Virus record (IMG/VR): IMGVR_UViG_3300017713_000045
Location: 1 to 31,010 of that record
From: a virus
Length of the DNA stretch: 31,010 nucleotides
Direction: 5' to 3' (one strand)
Shown here: piece after piece, positions 5,865-30,845 of the stretch
Numbering within the stretch: position 1 is the stretch's first letter
Layout of the letters: every line of letters starts with the position of its first letter
The notes under the pieces: model-generated
Seen by the model: only the letters and a program-made list of their open reading frames with translations
What the model was told of the DNA's origin: nothing
Database searches by the model: none
Program-made: the position numbers and the translations under genes

Positions 5865-6764
5865 TTATCTATTTATACGTACTGTATCGAGAGTTGTACA
5901 ATGAGGACCACCTAAAAGATATCTTGCATATGGTAGACTTACTGTTTCAACTGTATAATTCATATCACGAAATTTTTTAATTAACTTTGTTTGATCTTGA
6001 TCAAGCACAATAACACCAGGCTCTATAGTAAGAATATTCATACCTACCCACTTTGATGCAATATTATAATCGTTTGATATATCTCGTATTTCATCTGGTT
6101 CAATCCAGACACATTCCCATTTCTTTAAAAATTCAGGCAAGTGTTCTTCGGAGCATCTTGCCTTATTTATTAATATAACCCCTTCTTTGATTGGCACAAG
6201 AGTTGAATCTAAATGTGAGCCTTGATATAAACCTTTAAGTATGTGTACGTTATATTCTTTGCCTAATGTTTCTTGTAACCATAAGCCACCTTTAAGCGAG
6301 CCAGTTCCGCTTACGAGATATAAAATATCCCTATTACAGCGAATAATATTAGCGGCGTCGAAATATAAGTCGGGATCGTCAAGCGGTGCATGAATAATTT
6401 CTCCTAGTTTAAAATGATGTTTTAATGCAGGCCATTCTTCCCTGCGATATGTGAATCTGGTAGGTGTATATATAACTTTGTTACCAATGATAAGAACAGT
6501 ATCTCGCGTTGAATAAGCACCGAAACCATTTACAGTTTCATAGTTTCGAGCCTTTGGACGAAGTACATTCACACCATAAGTTTTCATTTTATTTGAATAC
6601 TCAGTTAAGCCCTGTTCTGTTTGTTCAATAATGTGAGAAGGCATTTTTTGACCTGAAGGAAGAATCTCCCACTTAACACCATCGGCTATGGGCCAATACA
6701 TACCACGAGCCGTTCCCAATATAACTTCCTTAAGAGGATCCCATTCATTATGACTATAAACCAT
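5865..6764 (-). CDS. Amidinotransferase-family enzyme (glycine/inosamine amidinotransferase-like)
   Basis: 299 residues with the guanidino-group modifying enzyme (pentein) layout: an STRDTVLIIGN segment (85-95), FDAAN with Asp136, GSHLD with His184 and Asp186, and GGPHCTTLD with the candidate nucleophile Cys289 ten residues from the end. The order Asp ... His-x-Asp ... C-terminal Cys matches arginine:glycine and inosamine-phosphate amidinotransferases, which move an amidino group from arginine to an acceptor amine through a Cys intermediate. Arginine deiminase or dihydrolase activity remains possible. Length is slightly short of typical bacterial members. Ribosome binding site TAGGAG. The acceptor is unknown; this looks like an acquired metabolic gene between uvsY and uvsW. 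Confidence 0.85.
   Translation of the reverse strand: MVYSHNEWDPLKEVILGTARGMYWPIADGVKWEILPSGQKMPSHIIEQTEQGLTEYSNKMKTYGVNVLRPKARNYETVNGFGAYSTRDTVLIIGNKVIYTPTRFTYRREEWPALKHHFKLGEIIHAPLDDPDLYFDAANIIRCNRDILYLVSGTGSLKGGLWLQETLGKEYNVHILKGLYQGSHLDSTLVPIKEGVILINKARCSEEHLPEFLKKWECVWIEPDEIRDISNDYNIASKWVGMNILTIEPGVIVLDQDQTKLIKKFRDMNYTVETVSLPYARYLLGGPHCTTLDTVRINR
5870..5877 (-). promoter_or_regulatory. Minus-strand late promoter TATAAATA
   Basis: Exact late octamer on the minus strand, inside the last codons of the amidinotransferase gene and 33 bases before the 121-residue gene. A second near copy (GATAAATA) follows immediately downstream. Confidence 0.65.
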
Positions 6765-17283: not shown

Positions 17284-17484
17284 ATGTCTGAATTCGATTA
17301 CATTCTTCGGGCAGTTGCAGAATACCAAGTTACTCGCAATGTACCAGAAGATTCTTTTTGGAATATTATTCGACACGTTGAAGACGGCGATGAATTCCTT
17401 ACAGCTATGCAAGCTCAGTCACACCTCATGGAGCTTGTTGAAAACTATAACATAATGAAAGCACGATATGAGCAGAGCGACTGA
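17284..17484 (+). CDS. Unknown acidic protein (66 aa)
   Basis: MSEFDYILRAVAEYQ..., acidic and helical, no recognised motif. The ATG at 17284 is preceded by GGAG at 7 bases; the frame also contains an ATG at 17266 without a good ribosome binding site. The 3' end overlaps the oxygenase-like gene by 17 bases. Confidence 0.7.
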   Translation: MSEFDYILRAVAEYQVTRNVPEDSFWNIIRHVEDGDEFLTAMQAQSHLMELVENYNIMKARYEQSD

Positions 17485-18097
17485 ATACCTTAAGAACTTA
17501 GGGCCAATGGAAGACTTCATTGAGCATATGGAAGGTGACCCCAACTCAACTTATTATAATGTTCTACCTGATATGAAATATGATGCAGATGAACTATTAG
17601 CTGAACTTGGTTCTATTGTAGATTTAGCTGATGGCAGCTGGGGCAAAGATCAATTACATATATCAAATGTTCCAGGACATGAAGATGATTTAGCTTATTC
17701 ATACGGTAGTCTTGTAGTAGATCATGTTAACTCAAAACCAAATGATGTGATTTTTTATGATGAACCAATAGAAGAATCAGACTTTTCATCTATTAGCACT
17801 ATATTTAAAGATACAACGTTTGAAAAGATTCATTCTGAATTAACAGCAAAATATAAGATTGGCCGGTTTCGTGTTATGACTTCCCGTCCAACCGGTTGTT
17901 TATCTTGGCATAACGATGCAAATAATCGAATACACTTTCCTATAAAAACACAACGTGGCTGCTTTATGATTGTTAATAATGAACCTCGACATTTAAAAAA
18001 AGGTGTCGGTTACTTTGTAAATACAAGGTCGCATCACACAGCAGTCAATGCATCACGAGAAACTCGTATTCATTTGGTTGCAAATGTACTTTCCTAA
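17468..18097 (+). CDS. 2-oxoglutarate/Fe(II) oxygenase-like protein (Asp/Asn hydroxylase type)
   Basis: 209 residues. The C-terminal half carries the double-stranded beta-helix markers: SWHND with His148 and Asp150, a RIHFPI strand, an NTRSHHTAVN segment with His190 as third iron ligand, and Arg200 (TRIHLV) placed to bind 2-oxoglutarate. The H-x-D ... H-x9-R layout is that of aspartyl/asparaginyl beta-hydroxylase-type enzymes. Residues 1-130 are acidic and show no known domain. The substrate could be protein or small molecule. The start has only a weak ribosome binding site; Met14 (17507) is an alternative. Coupled to the PP-loop gene, whose start overlaps its end by 14 bases. Confidence 0.7.
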   Translation: MSRATEYLKNLGPMEDFIEHMEGDPNSTYYNVLPDMKYDADELLAELGSIVDLADGSWGKDQLHISNVPGHEDDLAYSYGSLVVDHVNSKPNDVIFYDEPIEESDFSSISTIFKDTTFEKIHSELTAKYKIGRFRVMTSRPTGCLSWHNDANNRIHFPIKTQRGCFMIVNNEPRHLKKGVGYFVNTRSHHTAVNASRETRIHLVANVLS

Positions 18098-18695
18098 ACA
18101 TATAAAAAAGTGCGGATTGTTTCTTTCAGGCGGAATTGATTCTGCTCTGATTCTATATCATCTATCAAAGCTACCGGTTGAAGTTTATCCTATACACGGC
18201 TATGATATTAACATTCCTGAAATGGACACGCTTACAGTTGCTCAGGATGTAAGGAACTGGATACTCGTGAACGGCATTATGAAGAAAGATCTTCAAGCTA
18301 AGATACATGATATCACTATTCATCCTATGGACTTTGATGGTGTTAAATCAAAATACCATTTTATGAGACCAGCTCGTAAGTATCTCGAACAAAGATTTGC
18401 TGTAACTCATTGGGTGTTTGGTACAAGCCAAGGAATGCCGGGTGACGAAAGACCTGGAAACTCAATGAAAGGTAAAGAGTTACAAAACTTACCGGACAAT
18501 TATGATGATATTATTGTTCCATGGGCTTACAAAAACAAACAAGACATTGCAAAAGAGTATGCTGAATTCAATCTAAATGAATTAGCTAATATTACAAACA
18601 GTTGTACAATGAGCTTACCTGTACCTTGTCGAGAATGCTGGTGGTGTAAAGAACGCTATTGGGCATTTAATTCTTATGATGGGGGTGTACAGTAG
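18084..18695 (+). CDS. PP-loop ATPase, QueC-like (7-cyano-7-deazaguanine synthase family)
   Basis: 203 residues from the ATG at 18084 (an in-frame ATG at 18048 is less likely). PP-loop SGGIDS (15-20) after a hydrophobic strand; a cysteine cluster Cys174, Cys182, Cys185, Cys188 followed by ERYWAF. The C-x7-C-x2-C-x2-C spacing and trailing aromatic helix match the zinc site of QueC, which makes preQ0, the precursor of queuosine and of 7-deazaguanine DNA modifications. No QueD, QueE, FolE or transglycosylase is in the window, so either they lie elsewhere, the host supplies the substrate, or this is a different PP-loop enzyme. Confidence 0.75.
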   Translation: MYFPKHIKKCGLFLSGGIDSALILYHLSKLPVEVYPIHGYDINIPEMDTLTVAQDVRNWILVNGIMKKDLQAKIHDITIHPMDFDGVKSKYHFMRPARKYLEQRFAVTHWVFGTSQGMPGDERPGNSMKGKELQNLPDNYDDIIVPWAYKNKQDIAKEYAEFNLNELANITNSCTMSLPVPCRECWWCKERYWAFNSYDGGVQ

Positions 18696-21299: not shown

Positions 21300-21464
21300 A
21301 TGTCTACAAGATCTAAAATTTTAACTGTATTCTTTTGGTTACTACTGCTAGTAGCTATTGGATTAACATATCAAGTTGAACGACAGCTAGATTCACGCTT
21401 GAATTCAATGCAAGAACAAATTGATTCTACATCTAAGATGTTAGAAGCAATGACTAATGAGTAA
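21300..21464 (+). CDS. Small single-span membrane protein (54 aa)
   Basis: MSTRSKILTV, then a hydrophobic helix FFWLLLLVAIGLTY (11-24), then a charged helical tail with heptad-like spacing. Positive residues before the helix suggest N-in topology. An AGGAG ribosome binding site and the dedicated promoter upstream make it the first gene of its operon; it overlaps mazG by 8 bases. No family is recognised. Possible roles are lysis (spanin/holin-like) or membrane regulation, but nothing seen decides this. Confidence 0.7.
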   Translation: MSTRSKILTVFFWLLLLVAIGLTYQVERQLDSRLNSMQEQIDSTSKMLEAMTNE

Positions 21465-21870
21465 TAACTGGTCAACAGATATTGCTGACATGCATGTCAA
21501 GTTTGGTGTGCATGAATGGTTTGAAGCTAATAAAGATGATCCTGATCTTATGATTAAGTATCTACAATTTCGCATGGCAATGGTACAAGAAGAAGTCGAC
21601 GAAACTCGCACTGCTATGGTTACCGGCGATCCAGAAGAAGTTGTAGATGGCTTAATTGACTTATGTGTTTTCGCTATTGGTACACTTGATGTATTTGGCG
21701 TTAATGCAAATGAAGCTTGGGATAAAGTATATAATGCTAATATGGCTAAACAACCAGGTGTTAAAGAAGGTAGGCCGAATCCGTTCGGTTTACCTGATTT
21801 ACTTAAACCTGATGATTGGCAAGCACCATCCCACGAGGGTAATCATGGAGATATCGCTAACGCTCTTTAA
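21457..21870 (+). CDS. mazG: MazG-like NTP pyrophosphohydrolase
   Basis: 137 residues, all-alpha NTPase fold: E-E-x-x-E (Glu45, Glu46, Glu49) followed by E-x2-D (Glu61, Asp64) in EEVVDGLIDL, then AWDKVYNANMAK. It hydrolyses (d)NTPs to monophosphates. Phage members act on deoxynucleotides (the T4 dCTPase-dUTPase gp56 belongs to the same superfamily). Given the dCMP-type enzyme at 25475, a dCTP-removing role is worth testing. The C-terminal 25 residues are Pro/Asp-rich. Overlaps the next gene by 26 bases. Confidence 0.88.
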   Translation: MSNNWSTDIADMHVKFGVHEWFEANKDDPDLMIKYLQFRMAMVQEEVDETRTAMVTGDPEEVVDGLIDLCVFAIGTLDVFGVNANEAWDKVYNANMAKQPGVKEGRPNPFGLPDLLKPDDWQAPSHEGNHGDIANAL

Positions 21871-23678: not shown

Positions 23679-23868
23679 TGGTGGACCACCTTTAGACGAC
23701 CACAATTATGCTTATCGCTTATTTCTATGGAAGAAAGCAAAAAAAGAATCAAAAAAAGTTCCTGTTGAAATTGTACGATTTCGTATAAAGGAAGCACGGA
23801 AAGAAGGATTAACATATGACGAATATTGTTTTAAATATCGTTTACATAAGGAATTAAGTTCAATATGA
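23668..23868 (+). CDS. Small phage protein with no standard start codon (66 aa from ATA)
   Basis: An open frame encodes GHNGGPPLDDHNYAYRLF..., a basic middle, and EARKEGLTYDEYCFKYRL near the end. The GGPPLDD and (E)-x-G-L-T-Y-x-E-Y features recur in small phage proteins. The frame is closed upstream by TAG (23652-23654) and contains no ATG, GTG or TTG. The best candidate start is ATA at 23668, eight bases after a GAGGA; +1 frameshifting from the gene before it, or a sequence error, are alternatives. The stop overlaps the cupin ATG (ATGA), as between true genes here. Confidence 0.5.
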   Translation: MGHNGGPPLDDHNYAYRLFLWKKAKKESKKVPVEIVRFRIKEARKEGLTYDEYCFKYRLHKELSSI

Positions 23869-23869
23869 T
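23841..23869 (+). promoter_or_regulatory. Possible promoter overlapping the first cupin start
   Basis: TTTACA (23841-23846), 17-bp spacer, TATGAT (23864-23869). The -10 contains the cupin ATG at 23865, so it could not serve that start; it is a weak match and may be chance. Confidence 0.25.
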
Positions 23870-24206
23870 AGCAGGTAAAGTATGGGGTACGACCGAACTG
23901 ATTGAAGCTAATGGTGCTCTTGAGTTTCATCGTATCGAAATGAATAAGGGTGGTGTTTGTTCTAAGCACTGCCATGAATTCAAATGGAATGGATTCTATG
24001 TTGAATCAGGTCGTATGCTTATTCGTGTATGGCAAAATGATTACGACTTAGTTGACGTGACAGAGCTACAAGTGGGACAATACTGTAAGGTAAAGCCTGG
24101 TGTATATCATCAGTTTGAATGCTTAGAAGACGGTGTTGCATTTGAATTGTATTGGGCAGAATTTAATCATAATGATATAAAGAGGGAAACGGTAGGACAC
24201 GGATGA
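23865..24206 (+). CDS. Cupin-domain protein 1 (113 aa)
   Basis: Single cupin barrel: motif 1 with His35 and His37 in CSKHCHEF, Glu47, G49; motif 2 with PGVYHQF (His82). Begins VWGTTELIEANG. Cupins with this opening are typically sugar- or nucleotide-sugar-binding, and some are isomerases or oxygenases. It is the first of two cupins followed by a cytidylyltransferase, each overlapping the next by 4-8 bases, which suggests one pathway. Substrate unknown. Confidence 0.85.
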   Translation: MIAGKVWGTTELIEANGALEFHRIEMNKGGVCSKHCHEFKWNGFYVESGRMLIRVWQNDYDLVDVTELQVGQYCKVKPGVYHQFECLEDGVAFELYWAEFNHNDIKRETVGHG

Positions 24207-24523
24207 GATTTATAATTGGTGGTAAAGTAGTAAAACAGGATGAGCGCTATACAGTAACAGATAATACAACTCTTAAGAATTTGATTGTAAGTCAAACAGA
24301 ACTTAATCCAAACAAATCAACAACCGGACATTCACATGCCGGTCAGGAAGAAGTATATTTGTTTCATCAAGGATCCGGTACTATGGAGATTGATGACAAT
24401 CAATTTCAAGTAGATGTGGGCAGAGTAATCACAATACCTGATGGAGCATTTCATCGCGTGCATGCCGGAAGATATGGTTGCACATTCACATGTGTATTTG
24501 ATGGAAAGAGATACGATGGATAA
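24203..24523 (+). CDS. Cupin-domain protein 2 (106 aa)
   Basis: Second single cupin: GHSHAGQEEVYLF (His43, His45, Glu50) and IPDGAFHRV (His84), an intact metal site of the mannose-6-phosphate-isomerase-like type. ATGA overlap with cupin 1, 8-base overlap with the cytidylyltransferase. It differs enough from cupin 1 that a recent tandem duplication is unlikely. Confidence 0.88.
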   Translation: MRFIIGGKVVKQDERYTVTDNTTLKNLIVSQTELNPNKSTTGHSHAGQEEVYLFHQGSGTMEIDDNQFQVDVGRVITIPDGAFHRVHAGRYGCTFTCVFDGKRYDG

Positions 24524-24935
24524 TAGAGTTATAGGATTTACGGCTTCTACCTTTGATTTATTACATGCAGGGCATATTAGTATGCTACGAGAAGCAAAAG
24601 CAAAATGTGACTATTTAATTTGTGGATTGCAAGTTGATCCATCCTTAGATAGACCTAAAAAGAACAAACCAGTACAAACATTGGTTGAAAGATATACACA
24701 GCTACTTGCAGTTAGCTATGTAGATGAAATTATACCATATCAATCTGAAAATGATCTTATTGATATATTGCAAATGTATCCTATTAATATTCGTATTATG
24801 GGTGAAGAATACCGATCGATTCAATACACAGGCAAAGCTGAATGTATTCAACTTGGTATTGAAGTTTATTATAATAAGCGTAATCATCGCTTCTCTTCCT
24901 CCGGGTTAAGAGAACGGATATCGAGTAAAAAATAA
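24516..24935 (+). CDS. Cytidylyltransferase (glycerol-3-phosphate/ethanolamine-phosphate type)
   Basis: 139 residues from the ATG at 24516. Nucleotidyltransferase fold with TFDLLHAGH (His17-x-x-His20), GLQVDPS, an ERYTQL segment (58-63) and RFSSSGLR (125-132, the R/I-S-S-S/T-x-x-R signature). This matches TagD/ECT-like enzymes that make CDP-linked alcohols or sugars from CTP. The full-size match indicates an active enzyme. With the two cupins it could make an activated small molecule for decorating DNA, the capsid or the host surface. Confidence 0.87.
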   Translation: MDNRVIGFTASTFDLLHAGHISMLREAKAKCDYLICGLQVDPSLDRPKKNKPVQTLVERYTQLLAVSYVDEIIPYQSENDLIDILQMYPINIRIMGEEYRSIQYTGKAECIQLGIEVYYNKRNHRFSSSGLRERISSKK

Positions 24936-24989: not shown

Positions 24990-25481
24990 ATGATTAATGG
25001 AATTCATGCAATTGTTGCATGCGATGACTTCGGTGGAATATCTAAAGATGGCGTAATGCCATGGCCTAAGAATCCTGCTGATATGGCTCACTTTAAACAA
25101 CATACAGTTGGCCAGATAGTCATCATGGGCAGCAAAACATGGCATGATAAACAAATGCCTTCGCCCTTACCTAATCGATGCAATATTGTAATTACCTCAC
25201 AAGAGCTAGAAGGTCCTGAGCTTACTATCTTTGGTAAGCTACATGAAAAGATACCTGACATACCGTTTGATCAAGTTTTGACAGAGAAGTGGATTATTGG
25301 TGGTGCACAAATTATTGAACAATGCCTTCCAATTATTGATGAGTTTTATCTTACGCGAATTCCAGGTCATTATGATTGTGATACATTCATACCTCTTGAT
25401 GAAATCGGTCTACGCTTTAAATTAGCAGACGAGCATTGGGTAGGACAAACTAACTTTCAAAGGTTAATAAAACGATGGTAA
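24990..25481 (+). CDS. frd: Dihydrofolate reductase
   Basis: 163 residues (T4 Frd 193, E. coli FolA 159). Motifs: IVACDDFGGISKDG, MPWPKNPADMAHF (Trp25, Asp31, Phe35), IMGSKTW (45-51), WIIGGAQI with the NADPH-binding Gly-Gly, and FYLTRI. It regenerates tetrahydrofolate from dihydrofolate, which is needed if the next enzyme is an oxidising (methylating) thymidylate-synthase-type enzyme. Overlaps that gene by 7 bases. Confidence 0.94.
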   Translation: MINGIHAIVACDDFGGISKDGVMPWPKNPADMAHFKQHTVGQIVIMGSKTWHDKQMPSPLPNRCNIVITSQELEGPELTIFGKLHEKIPDIPFDQVLTEKWIIGGAQIIEQCLPIIDEFYLTRIPGHYDCDTFIPLDEIGLRFKLADEHWVGQTNFQRLIKRW

Positions 25482-26263
25482 ATAAATTTGAAACTAACTA
25501 TCTTGCGACAGCACGTAATATTCTATGGACTGGCGACCAACGTGAAGGACGTAATGGTGTAACTGTTTCTTTACCATTTCAATCTTTAACGTTTGATTTG
25601 TGTGATGGCTTACCTCTTATGACAACTCGTAAGAGCCATTATAAAGGTGTATTCGGTGAATATGCTGCATTGATACGTGGTCCTCAACACATTGATGACT
25701 TTACTAAGTGGGGCTGTAATTTCTGGAAGAAATGGGCACGACCTGACGGTACAATTAATCTTGATTATGGCAATGCATGGGTAGACTTCCATGGTGAAAA
25801 CCAAATGGAAACAGTGCTTCATCTTCTTAAGAATGATTATACTGATAGACGAATGCTTATTACCGGTTGGGATCCATCAAACCTTAAGAATGTAGATTTA
25901 CCTTGTTGTCACTATTCATATCAGTTTTGGTCAGACGGTAAGCATCTTGATTTACTATGGACACAAAGATCAGGCGATTGGATGATAGGCGTACCTGCTG
26001 ATGCATTACTTGCTTCTGCTATGGTAAATCAGTTTGCTAGTCTTGCAAATATGATTCCGCGTAAAGTAACAATGATGATAGGCGATGCGCACATCTATGA
26101 AGATCATTGGGAAGCTACACGTGAACAAACACGTCGTAAGCCTTTTGATATGCCATCATATGGTTATATGGCACAGAAAGATTTGTATTCTTTTACGCCT
26201 GATGACTTCATAGTAAAGAACTATGAGCATCATCCTGCTATTGACTATTTACTTAAAGAGTAA
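25475..26263 (+). CDS. Thymidylate-synthase-family enzyme with dCMP-type specificity residue
   Basis: 262 residues. Core TS residues are present: Glu62 (FGEY), Trp84/Trp87 region, Tyr98 in LDYGNAW, nucleophile Cys145 (PCCH), TQRSGD (163-168), GDAHIYEDH (203-211). The E. coli dUMP-binding Asn177 lies in GLPFN; here the segment is GVPAD, giving Asp176. Asp at this site is what T4 dCMP hydroxymethylase (gp42) has, and Asn-to-Asp changes in TS shift preference to dCMP. So the substrate may be dCMP, giving 5-hydroxymethyl- or 5-methyl-dCMP. Adjacent DHFR favours a methylating reaction. Plain ThyA remains possible. Confidence 0.9.
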   Translation: MVNKFETNYLATARNILWTGDQREGRNGVTVSLPFQSLTFDLCDGLPLMTTRKSHYKGVFGEYAALIRGPQHIDDFTKWGCNFWKKWARPDGTINLDYGNAWVDFHGENQMETVLHLLKNDYTDRRMLITGWDPSNLKNVDLPCCHYSYQFWSDGKHLDLLWTQRSGDWMIGVPADALLASAMVNQFASLANMIPRKVTMMIGDAHIYEDHWEATREQTRRKPFDMPSYGYMAQKDLYSFTPDDFIVKNYEHHPAIDYLLKE

Positions 26264-26276: not shown

Positions 26277-26714
26277 ATGGATAAGAAATGGGATAAACGT
26301 TATTTGGATATGGCTAGTGGCATTGCTCAATGGTCAAAAGATCCATCAAGTAAGATAGGCGCAGTTGCTGTTGGCGATAAAGGTCAGGTGCTAGCACAGG
26401 GCTTTAATGGCTTTCCTCGTAATATTAAAGATTGGGAAGAGCGTTTAAAAGTGCGTGAAACTAAATACAAGTTTATGATTCACGCTGAAATGAATGCTAT
26501 CTACAATGCAACTTATAATGGTGTATCACTTGATGGTGCTACACTTTATGTTCATGGTTTACCTTGTTGCGCTAATTGTGCACTCGGTGTAATTCAAGTT
26601 GGTATTAAACGAGTAGTAATGCGCGGCAATATTAAACCTCAATGGGAGGAGTCATTTGAGATGACAAAACAATTATTTAACGAAGCAAATGTAGAATGGG
26701 AATTTATTGAATGA
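26277..26714 (+). CDS. cd: dCMP deaminase
   Basis: 145 residues. Zinc-dependent cytidine deaminase fold: HAE (69-71) and P-C-C-x-x-C (96-101) provide the His and two Cys ligands and the catalytic Glu71. WSKDPSSKIGAV (19-30) and GVIQVGIKRVV are typical of phage dCMP deaminases, which make dUMP for thymidylate synthesis. Smaller than T4 Cd (193). The start is by homology (MDKK...); no ribosome binding site is seen and the upstream promoter would start inside the gene, so translation probably relies on read-through mRNA. ATGA overlap with uvsX. Confidence 0.9.
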   Translation: MDKKWDKRYLDMASGIAQWSKDPSSKIGAVAVGDKGQVLAQGFNGFPRNIKDWEERLKVRETKYKFMIHAEMNAIYNATYNGVSLDGATLYVHGLPCCANCALGVIQVGIKRVVMRGNIKPQWEESFEMTKQLFNEANVEWEFIE

Positions 26715-27760
26715 GTATTATGGATAGGTTGAAGAAGAACTCTAAACTGAAGCATACTGAAGTATTAGCTGAGTCTAAGTTTTTCAATGAAAAAGAACAA
26801 ACACCAACAAGCGTACCTATGGTTAATGTTGCACTTTCAGGCGATCCTGATGGTGGCTTAACTCCAGGCCTGACTGTATTGGCTGGTCCAAGTAAACACT
26901 TCAAGACTTCCTTTGCATTGCTTATGGCAGCAGCTTATCTTGATAAACATGATGATGCTGTAATGCTATTCTACGATTCAGAGTTTGGTTCACCTCAAGC
27001 ATACTTTAAACAGTTCGGAGTAGATCCATCTCGCGTATTGCATACACCTATTACAAATGTTGAAGAGCTTAAGTTTGATTTAATTGGACAGCTCGAAGCA
27101 ATGGAACGCACAGATAAAGTTATCATTGTGATTGATTCGATCGGTAATGTTGCGTCAAAGAAAGAGATGGAAGATACTATGAACGAGAAATCAGTTGCTG
27201 ATATGTCTCGTGCAAAAGCATTAAAAGGTTTATTCCGTATGGCTACACCTTATCTTGCTATGAAGAACATTTCTATGATTGCAGTTAACCACACATATCA
27301 AGAAATCGGATTGTTTCCAAAAGCAATTGTTTCTGGCGGTACTGGCATTTATTATTCAGCTGATAACATCTGGATTATTGGTCGTCAACAAGATAAAGTT
27401 GGTACTGAAATTAAAGGTTATCACTTTGTAATTAATGTTGAGAAGTCACGTTTTGTGAAAGAGAAGTCTAAGATCCCTATTAGCGTATCATGGGAAGGTG
27501 GCGTACAGAAATGGTCAGGCATACTTGATGTTGCATTGGCCGGTAACTTTGTTGCTAAACCATCAAATGGTTGGTATTGTCGTGTTGATATGGAAACAGG
27601 TGAGTTACTTGAACCTAAAGTAAGACAGAAAGATACCTTAGAAGAATCATTCTGGAAACCAGTCTTTGCTGACGGTAAGTTTAAAGAGTTCTTGAAAAAG
27701 CAATATCAAATCGGTCATGAGTCACTTGTGCCTATGGACGATATTGTGGTGGAGGCATGA
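26711..27760 (+). CDS. uvsX: UvsX recombinase (RecA-like)
   Basis: 349 residues (T4 UvsX 391). Strand-exchange protein loaded by UvsY. LTPGLTVLAGPSKHFKTSFA includes Walker A GPSKHFKTS (59-67; T4 has GPSKSFKS); FYDSEFG, Walker B VIIVIDS (near 137-143), NHTYQEIG and SGGTGIYYSADNIW loops follow. Complete core with a short C-terminus. Coupled to dCMP deaminase before and to an 85-residue gene after, by ATGA overlaps. Confidence 0.97.
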   Translation: MSIMDRLKKNSKLKHTEVLAESKFFNEKEQTPTSVPMVNVALSGDPDGGLTPGLTVLAGPSKHFKTSFALLMAAAYLDKHDDAVMLFYDSEFGSPQAYFKQFGVDPSRVLHTPITNVEELKFDLIGQLEAMERTDKVIIVIDSIGNVASKKEMEDTMNEKSVADMSRAKALKGLFRMATPYLAMKNISMIAVNHTYQEIGLFPKAIVSGGTGIYYSADNIWIIGRQQDKVGTEIKGYHFVINVEKSRFVKEKSKIPISVSWEGGVQKWSGILDVALAGNFVAKPSNGWYCRVDMETGELLEPKVRQKDTLEESFWKPVFADGKFKEFLKKQYQIGHESLVPMDDIVVEA

Positions 27761-29799: not shown

Positions 29800-30273
29800 A
29801 TGAAAAAATCAACTATATCAAATATCGTTAATGGTGTTGTAGTTGGCGGCTTAGCTGTTGCCTGCACTACCATCTATTCGCACAGTCAAACTGCACCTGA
29901 AATCTCGTGCCTAGCTGATAATATTTACTTTGAATCAAGTAATCAATCAGAGGTAGGCCAGATAGCAGTTGCAAATGTTACTATGAATAGAATGTATTCA
30001 AAACATTTTCCTAATACAATATGTGATGTTGTTTGGGAAGATAAGCAATTTAGCTGGACTCATGACGGCAAATCTGATGTGCCTTCTGATGCTGTAAAAT
30101 ATAACAGCATTTACAATCTTGCTGAATTAGTGTATAATGGTTATATACCCGATATAACTGAAGGCTCTACTTTCTATCATGCCGATTATGTCGAACCTTA
30201 TTGGGCATCGACTATGGATGAGAAAGTAACCACAATTGACAACCATATTTTTTATAAACATAAAGGCAGATAA
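29800..30273 (+). CDS. SleB/CwlJ-type cell wall hydrolase (endolysin), membrane-anchored or secreted
   Basis: 157 residues. MKKSTISNIVNGVVVGGLAVAC is a positively charged start plus hydrophobic helix (about 10-24), a signal or signal-anchor sequence. The Hydrolase_2 domain follows: LADNIYFESSNQSEVGQIAVANV (split, 38-60) with candidate catalytic Glu45, VVWEDKQFSWTHDG, and GSTFYHADYVEPYWA. It would cleave peptidoglycan (lytic-transglycosylase-like). The N-terminal helix suggests host-Sec export without needing a classical holin. Cys22 after the hydrophobic stretch could alternatively mark a lipoprotein, but the lipobox is poor. Promoter and palindromes upstream suggest dedicated control. Confidence 0.85.
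   Translation: MKKSTISNIVNGVVVGGLAVACTTIYSHSQTAPEISCLADNIYFESSNQSEVGQIAVANVTMNRMYSKHFPNTICDVVWEDKQFSWTHDGKSDVPSDAVKYNSIYNLAELVYNGYIPDITEGSTFYHADYVEPYWASTMDEKVTTIDNHIFYKHKGR
30110..30138 (+). promoter_or_regulatory. Internal promoter for the kinase gene
   Basis: TTTACA (30110-30115), 17-bp spacer, perfect TATAAT (30133-30138), inside the lysin gene and 134 bases before the kinase start. Confidence 0.55.
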
Positions 30274-30845
30274 TGAAATTACTTGTGATAGGCTACGGCC
30301 GACATGGCAAAGATACTGTATCCGAGTATCTTGCAAACAAATATAACCTTAGCTTTAATTCTTCATCTTGGCATTGTGCAGACAATGTTTGCTTTCCTGC
30401 ACTTCGTGATAAGTACAATTATAAAACTGTACAAGAATGCTTTGATGATCGTTCAAATCATCGTGCTGAATGGTACGATCTTATCTCTGCTTATTGCGAT
30501 AAAGATCATGCTCGTATCGGTCGTGAAATCTTTTCTTTTTCAAACATCTATTGCGGTGTTCGTAACAAACGTGAATTCCATGCTATTCGTAATGCAGGCT
30601 TATGTGACTTTGTCATATGGGTAGATCGCTCTGACCACCTTCCTGCTGAAGACAAATCAAGTAATACACTTGAACCCTGGATGGCAGACTATATTATCGA
30701 TAACAATGATACGCTCGAACAACTACATATCAATGTTGATCAATTATATAACTATCTTAACTTCGGTGATTATTCTGATATTCTTGAAGAGCTTGAATTA
30801 TCTGCTGGCGTTGGAAGTAGTAGTGTGTCTAAAATGTCACACTGA
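30273..30845 (+). CDS. Deoxynucleoside monophosphate kinase-like P-loop protein
   Basis: 190 residues. The N-terminus MKLLVIGYGRHGKDTVSEYL carries a P-loop G-x-x-x-x-G-K-D-T (7-15), as in phage dNMP kinases such as T4 gp1. GVRNKREFHAIRNAG and DFVIWVDRS resemble the segment in those kinases where acceptor contacts and a core strand occur, and an ITNxGT-like IIDNNDTLEQL region (146-156) follows. It would phosphorylate dNMPs, potentially including a modified dCMP. Length is below T4 gp1 (241). The start overlaps the lysin stop by one base. Confidence 0.75.
   Translation: MKLLVIGYGRHGKDTVSEYLANKYNLSFNSSSWHCADNVCFPALRDKYNYKTVQECFDDRSNHRAEWYDLISAYCDKDHARIGREIFSFSNIYCGVRNKREFHAIRNAGLCDFVIWVDRSDHLPAEDKSSNTLEPWMADYIIDNNDTLEQLHINVDQLYNYLNFGDYSDILEELELSAGVGSSSVSKMSH

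Follow-up and report, generated by a model that had tools for sequence, protein, structure and literature searches.

Complete replacement of cytosine by 5-methylcytosine (5mC) is, to our knowledge, documented mainly for phage Xp12. All of the cytosine in Xp12 DNA is replaced by 5mC, and the Xp12 relative AXL1 encodes a dihydrofolate reductase (DHFR), a dCMP deaminase, a thymidylate synthase (TS) and a nucleotide pyrophosphohydrolase in one row (PMC9206674). The deaminase of XP-12 acts on 5-methyl-dCTP, yielding dTTP (PMC12088426). The MetaGPA study, in which phage contigs from sewage and coastal samples were chosen because their cytosines resisted deamination by enzymes, found that Asp177 TS, PRA-PH and dCMP deaminase domains are associated with modified DNA (PMC8670742); work cited in the same paper reports that an Asn-to-Asp change at position 177 converts a TS into a dCMP methylase. 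T4 dCMP hydroxymethylase (gp42) belongs to the same superfamily, and its ternary structure (IUCrJ, 2019) names discriminating features, i.e. Asp145, which lies three residues before the catalytic Cys and activates the attacking water, such that its change to Asn abolishes activity, Ser94, which lies two residues before Tyr96 and with Asp145 forms part of a water-holding network, and the absence of a C-terminal tail (PMC6400193).

The DNA analysed here (the window) comprises 31,010 nucleotides (positions 1 to 31,010) of IMG/VR record IMGVR_UViG_3300017713_000045. It is a fragment of a T4-like phage, with a major head protein, DNA polymerase and UvsX that match T4-like families; the DNA polymerase is nearest to that of Phage C48C1 (Kyanoviridae; 49.5%). 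The genes of concern are:

21457–21870 (+), MazG/PRA-PH-type nucleotide pyrophosphohydrolase, 137 residues (PF01503, 41 bits)
24990–25481 (+), dihydrofolate reductase, 163 residues (PF00186, 104 bits)
25475–26263 (+), TS-family enzyme with Asp176, a predicted dCMP C5-methylase, 262 residues (PF00303, 206 bits)
26277–26714 (+), dCMP deaminase family protein, 145 residues (PF00383, 71.9 bits)
26711–27760 (+), UvsX recombinase (phrog_97, 294 bits; T4_UVSX_C)
30273–30845 (+), deoxynucleoside monophosphate (dNMP) kinase-like protein, 190 residues, P-loop GYGRHGKD (phrog_139)

The DHFR and TS-family genes overlap by 7 bases, only 13 bases separate the end of the latter from the deaminase gene, and uvsX starts inside the deaminase stop. 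This spacing defines a block in the order DHFR, TS-family enzyme, deaminase, UvsX, and the position of the uvsX start implies that the operon continues into replication genes. The MazG and kinase genes, 3.6 and 4 kb from the TS-family gene, respectively, lie outside the tight operon, and the five nucleotide-metabolism genes are spread across 9 kb of the window. Just 5' of the DHFR gene (23865–24935, +), the genes of two cupin proteins precede that of an HldE-like nucleotidyltransferase, possibly a small sugar-nucleotide cassette.

The TS-family enzyme and its clade

The TS-family open reading frame is intact and starts with ATG. An AlphaFold2 model of the enzyme (mean pLDDT 95) superimposes on ThyA structures with a Z score of 35.8 and an rmsd of 1.3 Å across 257 residues. 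Alignment with Escherichia coli ThyA (from MG1655) confirms the sequence-only reading in that the main TS catalytic residues are all in place, i.e. Glu62 (E58 in ThyA), Trp84 (W80), Trp87 (W83), Tyr98 (Y94), Arg125 and Arg126 (R126 and R127), Cys145 (C146), His146 (H147), Arg165 (R166), Ser166 (S167), Asp168 (D169), His206 (H207) and Tyr208 (Y209); the C-terminal tail is of full length and aligns through to the ThyA end. The alignment likewise agrees with that reading in placing Asp176 (GVPAD) at the dUMP-binding Asn177 of ThyA, and reveals two further unusual positions absent from it, Asp97 and Cys144 (ThyA Pro145), the latter an additional Cys that immediately precedes the nucleophile. The relevant positions are:

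25763–25765 (+), codon of Asp97 (ThyA Val93 column), a clade-specific acidic residue next to the catalytic Tyr98, by alignment
25898–25912 (+), LPCCH motif (Leu142-Pro-Cys-Cys145-His146), in which Leu142 lies three residues before the nucleophile Cys145, by alignment
26000–26002 (+), codon of Asp176, the pyrimidine-specificity position, by alignment to the ThyA N177 column

Scanning IMG/VR with the patterns CCH[YH][ST]YQ and Fxx[WF][GD]CN[YF]W gave 156 relatives, the best 80 of which were read; these 80 viral contigs fall into 45 groups below 90% identity. Among the best 80 of the 156, every sequence has Asp at the N177 column, where all 19 ThyA-type sequences have Asn. Asp97 and Cys144 are also present in 80/80 of this set, conservation in the CCH and CN[YF]W segments being partly by construction because these segments form part of the scan patterns, outside of which both the Asp176 and Asp97 positions lay. 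Elsewhere, the Val93 column is occupied by Val or Ile in ThyA, by Ala in the Xp12-type enzymes and by Asn in the gp42-type enzymes. The occurrence of the same gene in three independent contigs (L001–L003; 99–100%), together with the presence of Asp in all 80 relatives read, argues that Asp176 reflects neither chance nor sequencing error, and the finding that 71 of the 140 codons differing between the window gene and that of contig L004 are synonymous is consistent with a gene under constraint. Asp179 of gp42 aligns at the specificity column, as had been stated for the T4 enzyme, and the clade-wide Asp supports the earlier proposal of dCMP as substrate; on this basis, we consider it very probable that the window enzyme acts on dCMP.

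In a maximum-likelihood tree of 94 sequences, including 19 ThyA-type rows, the window enzyme and 43 relatives form one clade (support 100/99), which is sister to the ThyA-type rows (grouping support 82/84) and distinct from the gp42-type (100/99) and Xp12-type (100/97) clades. The tree, which the sequence-only reading had proposed together with the inspection of the specificity column, gives the enzyme a clade of its own, and the placement inside ordinary ThyA that the same reading had considered as a contrary outcome is not what the tree shows. Long branches, of which the tree program warned, leave the exact sequence of deep splits uncertain, but the separation of the three Asp clades is well supported. 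Two histories fit the data, repeated origins of Asp or derivation of the ThyA Asn from an Asp ancestor.

Clade members, which are labelled plain thymidylate synthase nearly everywhere in annotations, are present in the cultured phages Kolga (Pelagibacter, SAR11), KF-1 (Edwardsiella), VPMS1 (Vibrio), PH1 (Pseudoalteromonas) and Amaethon (Dickeya). Outside the T4-like lineage, the nearest DHFR-TS relatives are those of contigs L005, L008 and L009, which adjoin a gene that clusters with the Kolga RNA polymerase; a T7-like helicase-primase is encoded close by, as is a family A DNA polymerase in L005, and a MazG and/or DUF6378-type protein lies upstream. The same enzyme occurs in other settings, i.e. 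in the siphovirus Kolga and in KF-1-type podoviruses, which implies movement of the cassette between tailed phages of differing architecture. HMO-2011-type phages were considered as carriers and rejected, the paper describing them reporting ThyX instead. The 'bifunctional dihydrofolate reductase-thymidylate synthase' of ct1fd225 (UOF81436; L037 329–1339) gave no alignment as a TS, and its label is a probable misannotation. Published restriction or base-composition data were sought for KF-1, ETP-1, VPMS1, PH1, Amaethon and Kolga, with nothing usable found.

Partner genes and the Xp12-type module

All of the partners named in the sequence-only reading were recovered, MazG, DHFR and the dCMP deaminase above the Pfam cut-offs and the dNMP-kinase-like protein just below its cut-off, the last being clear by PHROGs and tblastn. 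Forty-eight clade records, many of them fragments, were examined for the same genes. A PRA-PH/MazG-type protein is encoded in 43 of these, mostly close to the enzyme gene, and a dCMP deaminase in 31. DHFR scores above the Pfam cut-off in seven, six of which lie within the window's own subclade. The adjacent DHFR, which the sequence-only reading took to favour methylation, argues only weakly for it since the other 41 of the 48 records have no DHFR match above the cut-off. Clustering of the gene neighbours at 45 dereplicated loci gave a MazG cluster at 32 and a DUF1599 'nucleotide modification associated domain 1'-type cluster at 21, the DUF1599 match being below the Pfam cut-off. In many marine relatives this DUF1599 (Nmad1)-like gene (cluster 6), which is gp36 in Kolga (L031 11532–11984), is the neighbour of the gene for the enzyme. 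ThyX was found neither in 31 clade records nor in the window, and a check of 20 clade records gave one TS-family gene in each. No member of the deaminase family was found in Kolga or VPMS1, whose complete genomes retain the enzyme and MazG.

The Xp12-type system was represented in our comparison by the Xp12 relatives DLP4 and PaMx28. In both, an NTP-PPase, a TS with Asp177, a deaminase and DHFR are encoded in a row, and eight further Xp12-type contigs encode MazG and deaminase in all cases and DHFR in six. In RDJL Phi1 (Roseobacter) and RcRudolph (Rhodobacter) the order is a MazG-kinase fusion, the Asp177 TS, the deaminase and DHFR; the window kinase matches the kinase half of this fusion at 59% (RcRudolph) and 48% (RDJL Phi1), and the window MazG is 39–44% identical to the MazG half of the Xp12-type fusion proteins (44% for RcRudolph). 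The DLP4 pyrophosphohydrolase is itself a two-part protein, the first half of which is homologous to the window MazG (40%) and the second half of which matches the DUF1599-like gene beside the Kolga enzyme (34%), a DUF1599-like part being joined to MazG in PaMx28 as well. These homologies and fusions tie the window MazG and kinase to Xp12-type phages with 5mC, in support of the claim that the window carries a cytosine-modification gene set. The window thus contains a counterpart of each supporting gene in the Xp12-type module, around a different TS lineage.

The Xp12-type phages (Xp12, AXL1, DLP4 and PaMx28, i.e. Bosavirus/Pamexvirus, with RDJL Phi1 and RcRudolph) thus have in common with the window the Asp at the N177 column and the partners MazG-type NTP-PPase, dCMP deaminase and DHFR, the kinase being fused to MazG in the latter two. 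The window differs in that its enzyme belongs to the separate clade sister to ThyA, has LPCCH and DYG in place of NVPCP and AYG, and is encoded by a T4-like phage in which MazG and the kinase are unfused. The residue and partner domains are also those of the MetaGPA cluster (eLife 2021, PMC8670742), and the MetaGPA set, found independently by phenotype, is the same as that of the window; that study, in contrast, followed up a 5hmC carbamoyltransferase, and 50 records examined for the window clade yielded no member of this family. Systems of this kind are known from Xp12; what is new is the lineage of the enzyme, together with its signature and its distribution across marine phages.

With respect to individual partners, PMC9038755 cites work in which a cyanophage MazG is reported to hydrolyse dCTP and dGTP, an activity that fits the dCTP-removing role proposed for the window MazG. 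The window deaminase has Trp123 where that of DLP4 has Trp128, at the position of XP-12 Trp128, a match that we consider permissive, not diagnostic. The window kinase type also forms the N-terminal part of ThyX-annotated proteins of Ruegeria phage V13 (L298 2983–4503) and related N4-like roseophages, which gives a further connection between a kinase and a TS.

Methyl versus hydroxymethyl product

Three residues ahead of the nucleophile, all 20 gp42-type enzymes have Asp, as do the dUMP hydroxymethylases from SPO1 (KDRPC), M6 (KDLPC) and W-14 (KDVPC), which represent a different hydroxymethylase branch without Trp80; a TS-family match in phage ViI was excluded from this comparison. The same position is Asn in 10/10 Xp12-type enzymes and Leu in 19/19 ThyA-type enzymes and 45/45 members of the window clade. 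Trp80 is likewise retained in the clade, as are the full-length tail and, in most members, Trp83, whereas gp42 has Val (Val85) at the Trp87 site and no tail. The window sequence Leu96-Asp97-Tyr98 has no Ser or Thr two residues before the catalytic Tyr. Despite the Asp at the specificity column and an origin in T4-like phages with dNMP kinase, dCMP deaminase and DHFR, both shared with gp42, the window enzyme therefore lacks the hydroxymethylase signature (Asp or Glu at −3, Ser/Thr-x-Tyr, no tail), which favours methylation. It differs in turn from the SPO1-type dUMP hydroxymethylases, which combine Asn at 177 with Asp at −3, in having Asp176 and Leu142, and from ThyA, with which it shares the fold, catalytic residues, Leu143, Trp80/Trp83, the tail and the nearest position in the tree, in having Asp for Asn177 plus Asp97 and Cys144.

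Carbamoyltransferases were found in none of 50 records and family-2 glycosyltransferases in none of 28, i.e. there is no sign of enzymes decorating a hydroxymethyl group. Since the window clade branches apart from the Xp12-type enzymes, a methyl product cannot be read from orthology, and the second MetaGPA position, 147, is His146 in the window enzyme, the ThyA state, which counts against the methylase reading, as do the missing DHFR matches in most clade records and the distance of the MazG and kinase genes from the enzyme gene. The sequence-only reading had left the product as 5-methyl- or 5-hydroxymethyl-dC; the Leu at −3 and the retained tail and tryptophans point to the former, and we consider that a methyl rather than a hydroxymethyl group is probably transferred.

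Proposed pathway and its alternatives

From the residues, clade, gene set, recurrence and fusions observed, we infer a substrate, product, set of catalytic steps and virion modification as follows. Cys145 would attack C6 of dCMP, with Asp176 accepting the cytosine amino/N3 face that is rejected by Asn177 in ThyA; methylene-tetrahydrofolate would donate the carbon, and a folate hydride would reduce the exocyclic methylene to methyl, as in ThyA, leaving dihydrofolate to be recycled by DHFR. MazG may convert dCTP to dCMP, both feeding the enzyme and keeping plain cytosine from the DNA, and the dNMP kinase may move 5-methyl-dCMP toward 5-methyl-dCTP. The phage polymerase would then build DNA with 5mC in place of cytosine, as in Xp12, such that host nucleases would be blocked, and the deaminase would probably turn surplus 5-methyl-dC nucleotide into thymidine nucleotide, like the XP-12 enzyme. 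We regard a dCMP C5-methylase making 5-methyl-dCMP for 5mC-substituted DNA as the best overall explanation and hold it with fair confidence; substitution of the virion DNA with 5mC appears, to a similar degree, likely.

An alternative that we consider unlikely is that the enzyme is a dCMP hydroxymethylase acting by a different route, in which water, perhaps activated by Asp97, attacks the methylene to give 5-hydroxymethyl-dCMP, as in T4. Asp97 places a carboxylate by the catalytic Tyr, at a position structurally equivalent to T4 Ser94 (PMC6400193), and could in principle activate water; Asp176 is as in gp42, GenBank MW202665 labels its clade member 'pyrimidine hmase', and most clade records have no DHFR match. 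The invariant Leu at −3, the absence of Ser-x-Tyr, and the retention of the tail and Trp87 argue otherwise, however, as do the failure to find a glycosyl- or carbamoyltransferase partner in the records given above and the fact that the nearest matching module belongs to 5mC phages.

The position of the deaminase gene raises the question of whether the pathway serves instead to supply thymidine, dCMP being converted via 5-methyl-dCMP to dTMP in replacement of the dUMP route, with ordinary cytosine in the DNA. dCMP deaminases accept 5-methyl-dCMP and the XP-12 enzyme acts on 5-methyl-dCTP (PMC12088426); furthermore, neither ThyX nor a second TS was found in the window or in the clade records checked. 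Yet Kolga and VPMS1 keep the enzyme and MazG without a recognised deaminase, the candidate dCTP-removing MazG and separate kinase fit substitution better, and both functions coexist in Xp12, so that we judge thymidine supply alone to be quite improbable. Least probable of all, in our view, is an ordinary TS that converts dUMP to dTMP, with MazG, DHFR, the deaminase and the kinase being routine phage thymidylate genes. The sister relationship to ThyA, the full ThyA fold with its catalytic residues and the near-universal thymidylate synthase label are in its favour; opposed to it are an invariant Asp where, in the work cited in PMC8670742, Asn-to-Asp alone yields a dCMP methylase, and a clade-wide co-occurrence of genes that matches that of cytosine-modified contigs.

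If the enzyme is a dCMP methylase, 5mC-containing DNA is predicted in phages of many marine metagenomes as well as in Kolga, KF-1, VPMS1, PH1 and Amaethon, and 5mC substitution may extend to dozens of relatives yet to be studied, a cultured SAR11 phage among them. This would bear on marine virome sequencing and on the understanding of host restriction of the clade phages, and the residue three before the catalytic Cys may provide a sequence rule separating methylases from hydroxymethylases in the superfamily. More tentatively, and with rather less than even confidence, it may be that a third dCMP-modifying TS lineage, nearest to ThyA and marked by Asp97 and Cys144, runs 5mC substitution in many unrelated marine phages, both T4-like and T7-like, and in the siphovirus Kolga of SAR11, and that where the deaminase is present both 5mC and thymidine derive from dCMP without a dUMP step.

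Several other genes were noted. Searches of the complete circular record of Phage C48C1 gave no TS-family gene and no ThyX; a DNA methyltransferase is encoded directly 3' of its DNA polymerase gene (L297 17495–18379), perhaps as an alternative means of protection. On the minus strand of the window, positions 5865–6764 encode a 299-residue protein that is amidinotransferase-like by eye, has no Pfam match and matches only a PHROG of unknown function. A PP-loop protein resembling QueC (18048–18695, +; PF06508, 25.8 bits; phrog_1550), which carries an SGGIDS motif and has clustered Cys residues at its C terminus, is encoded with no further 7-deazaguanine genes recognised near it; its gene overlaps by approximately 50 bases with that of an aspartyl/asparaginyl beta-hydroxylase-like 2-oxoglutarate oxygenase (17468–18097, +; PF05118). 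Adjoining the dNMP kinase gene on its 5' side, positions 29800–30273 (+) encode a cell wall hydrolase (PF07486, 97 bits) that has a hydrophobic stretch near its N terminus.
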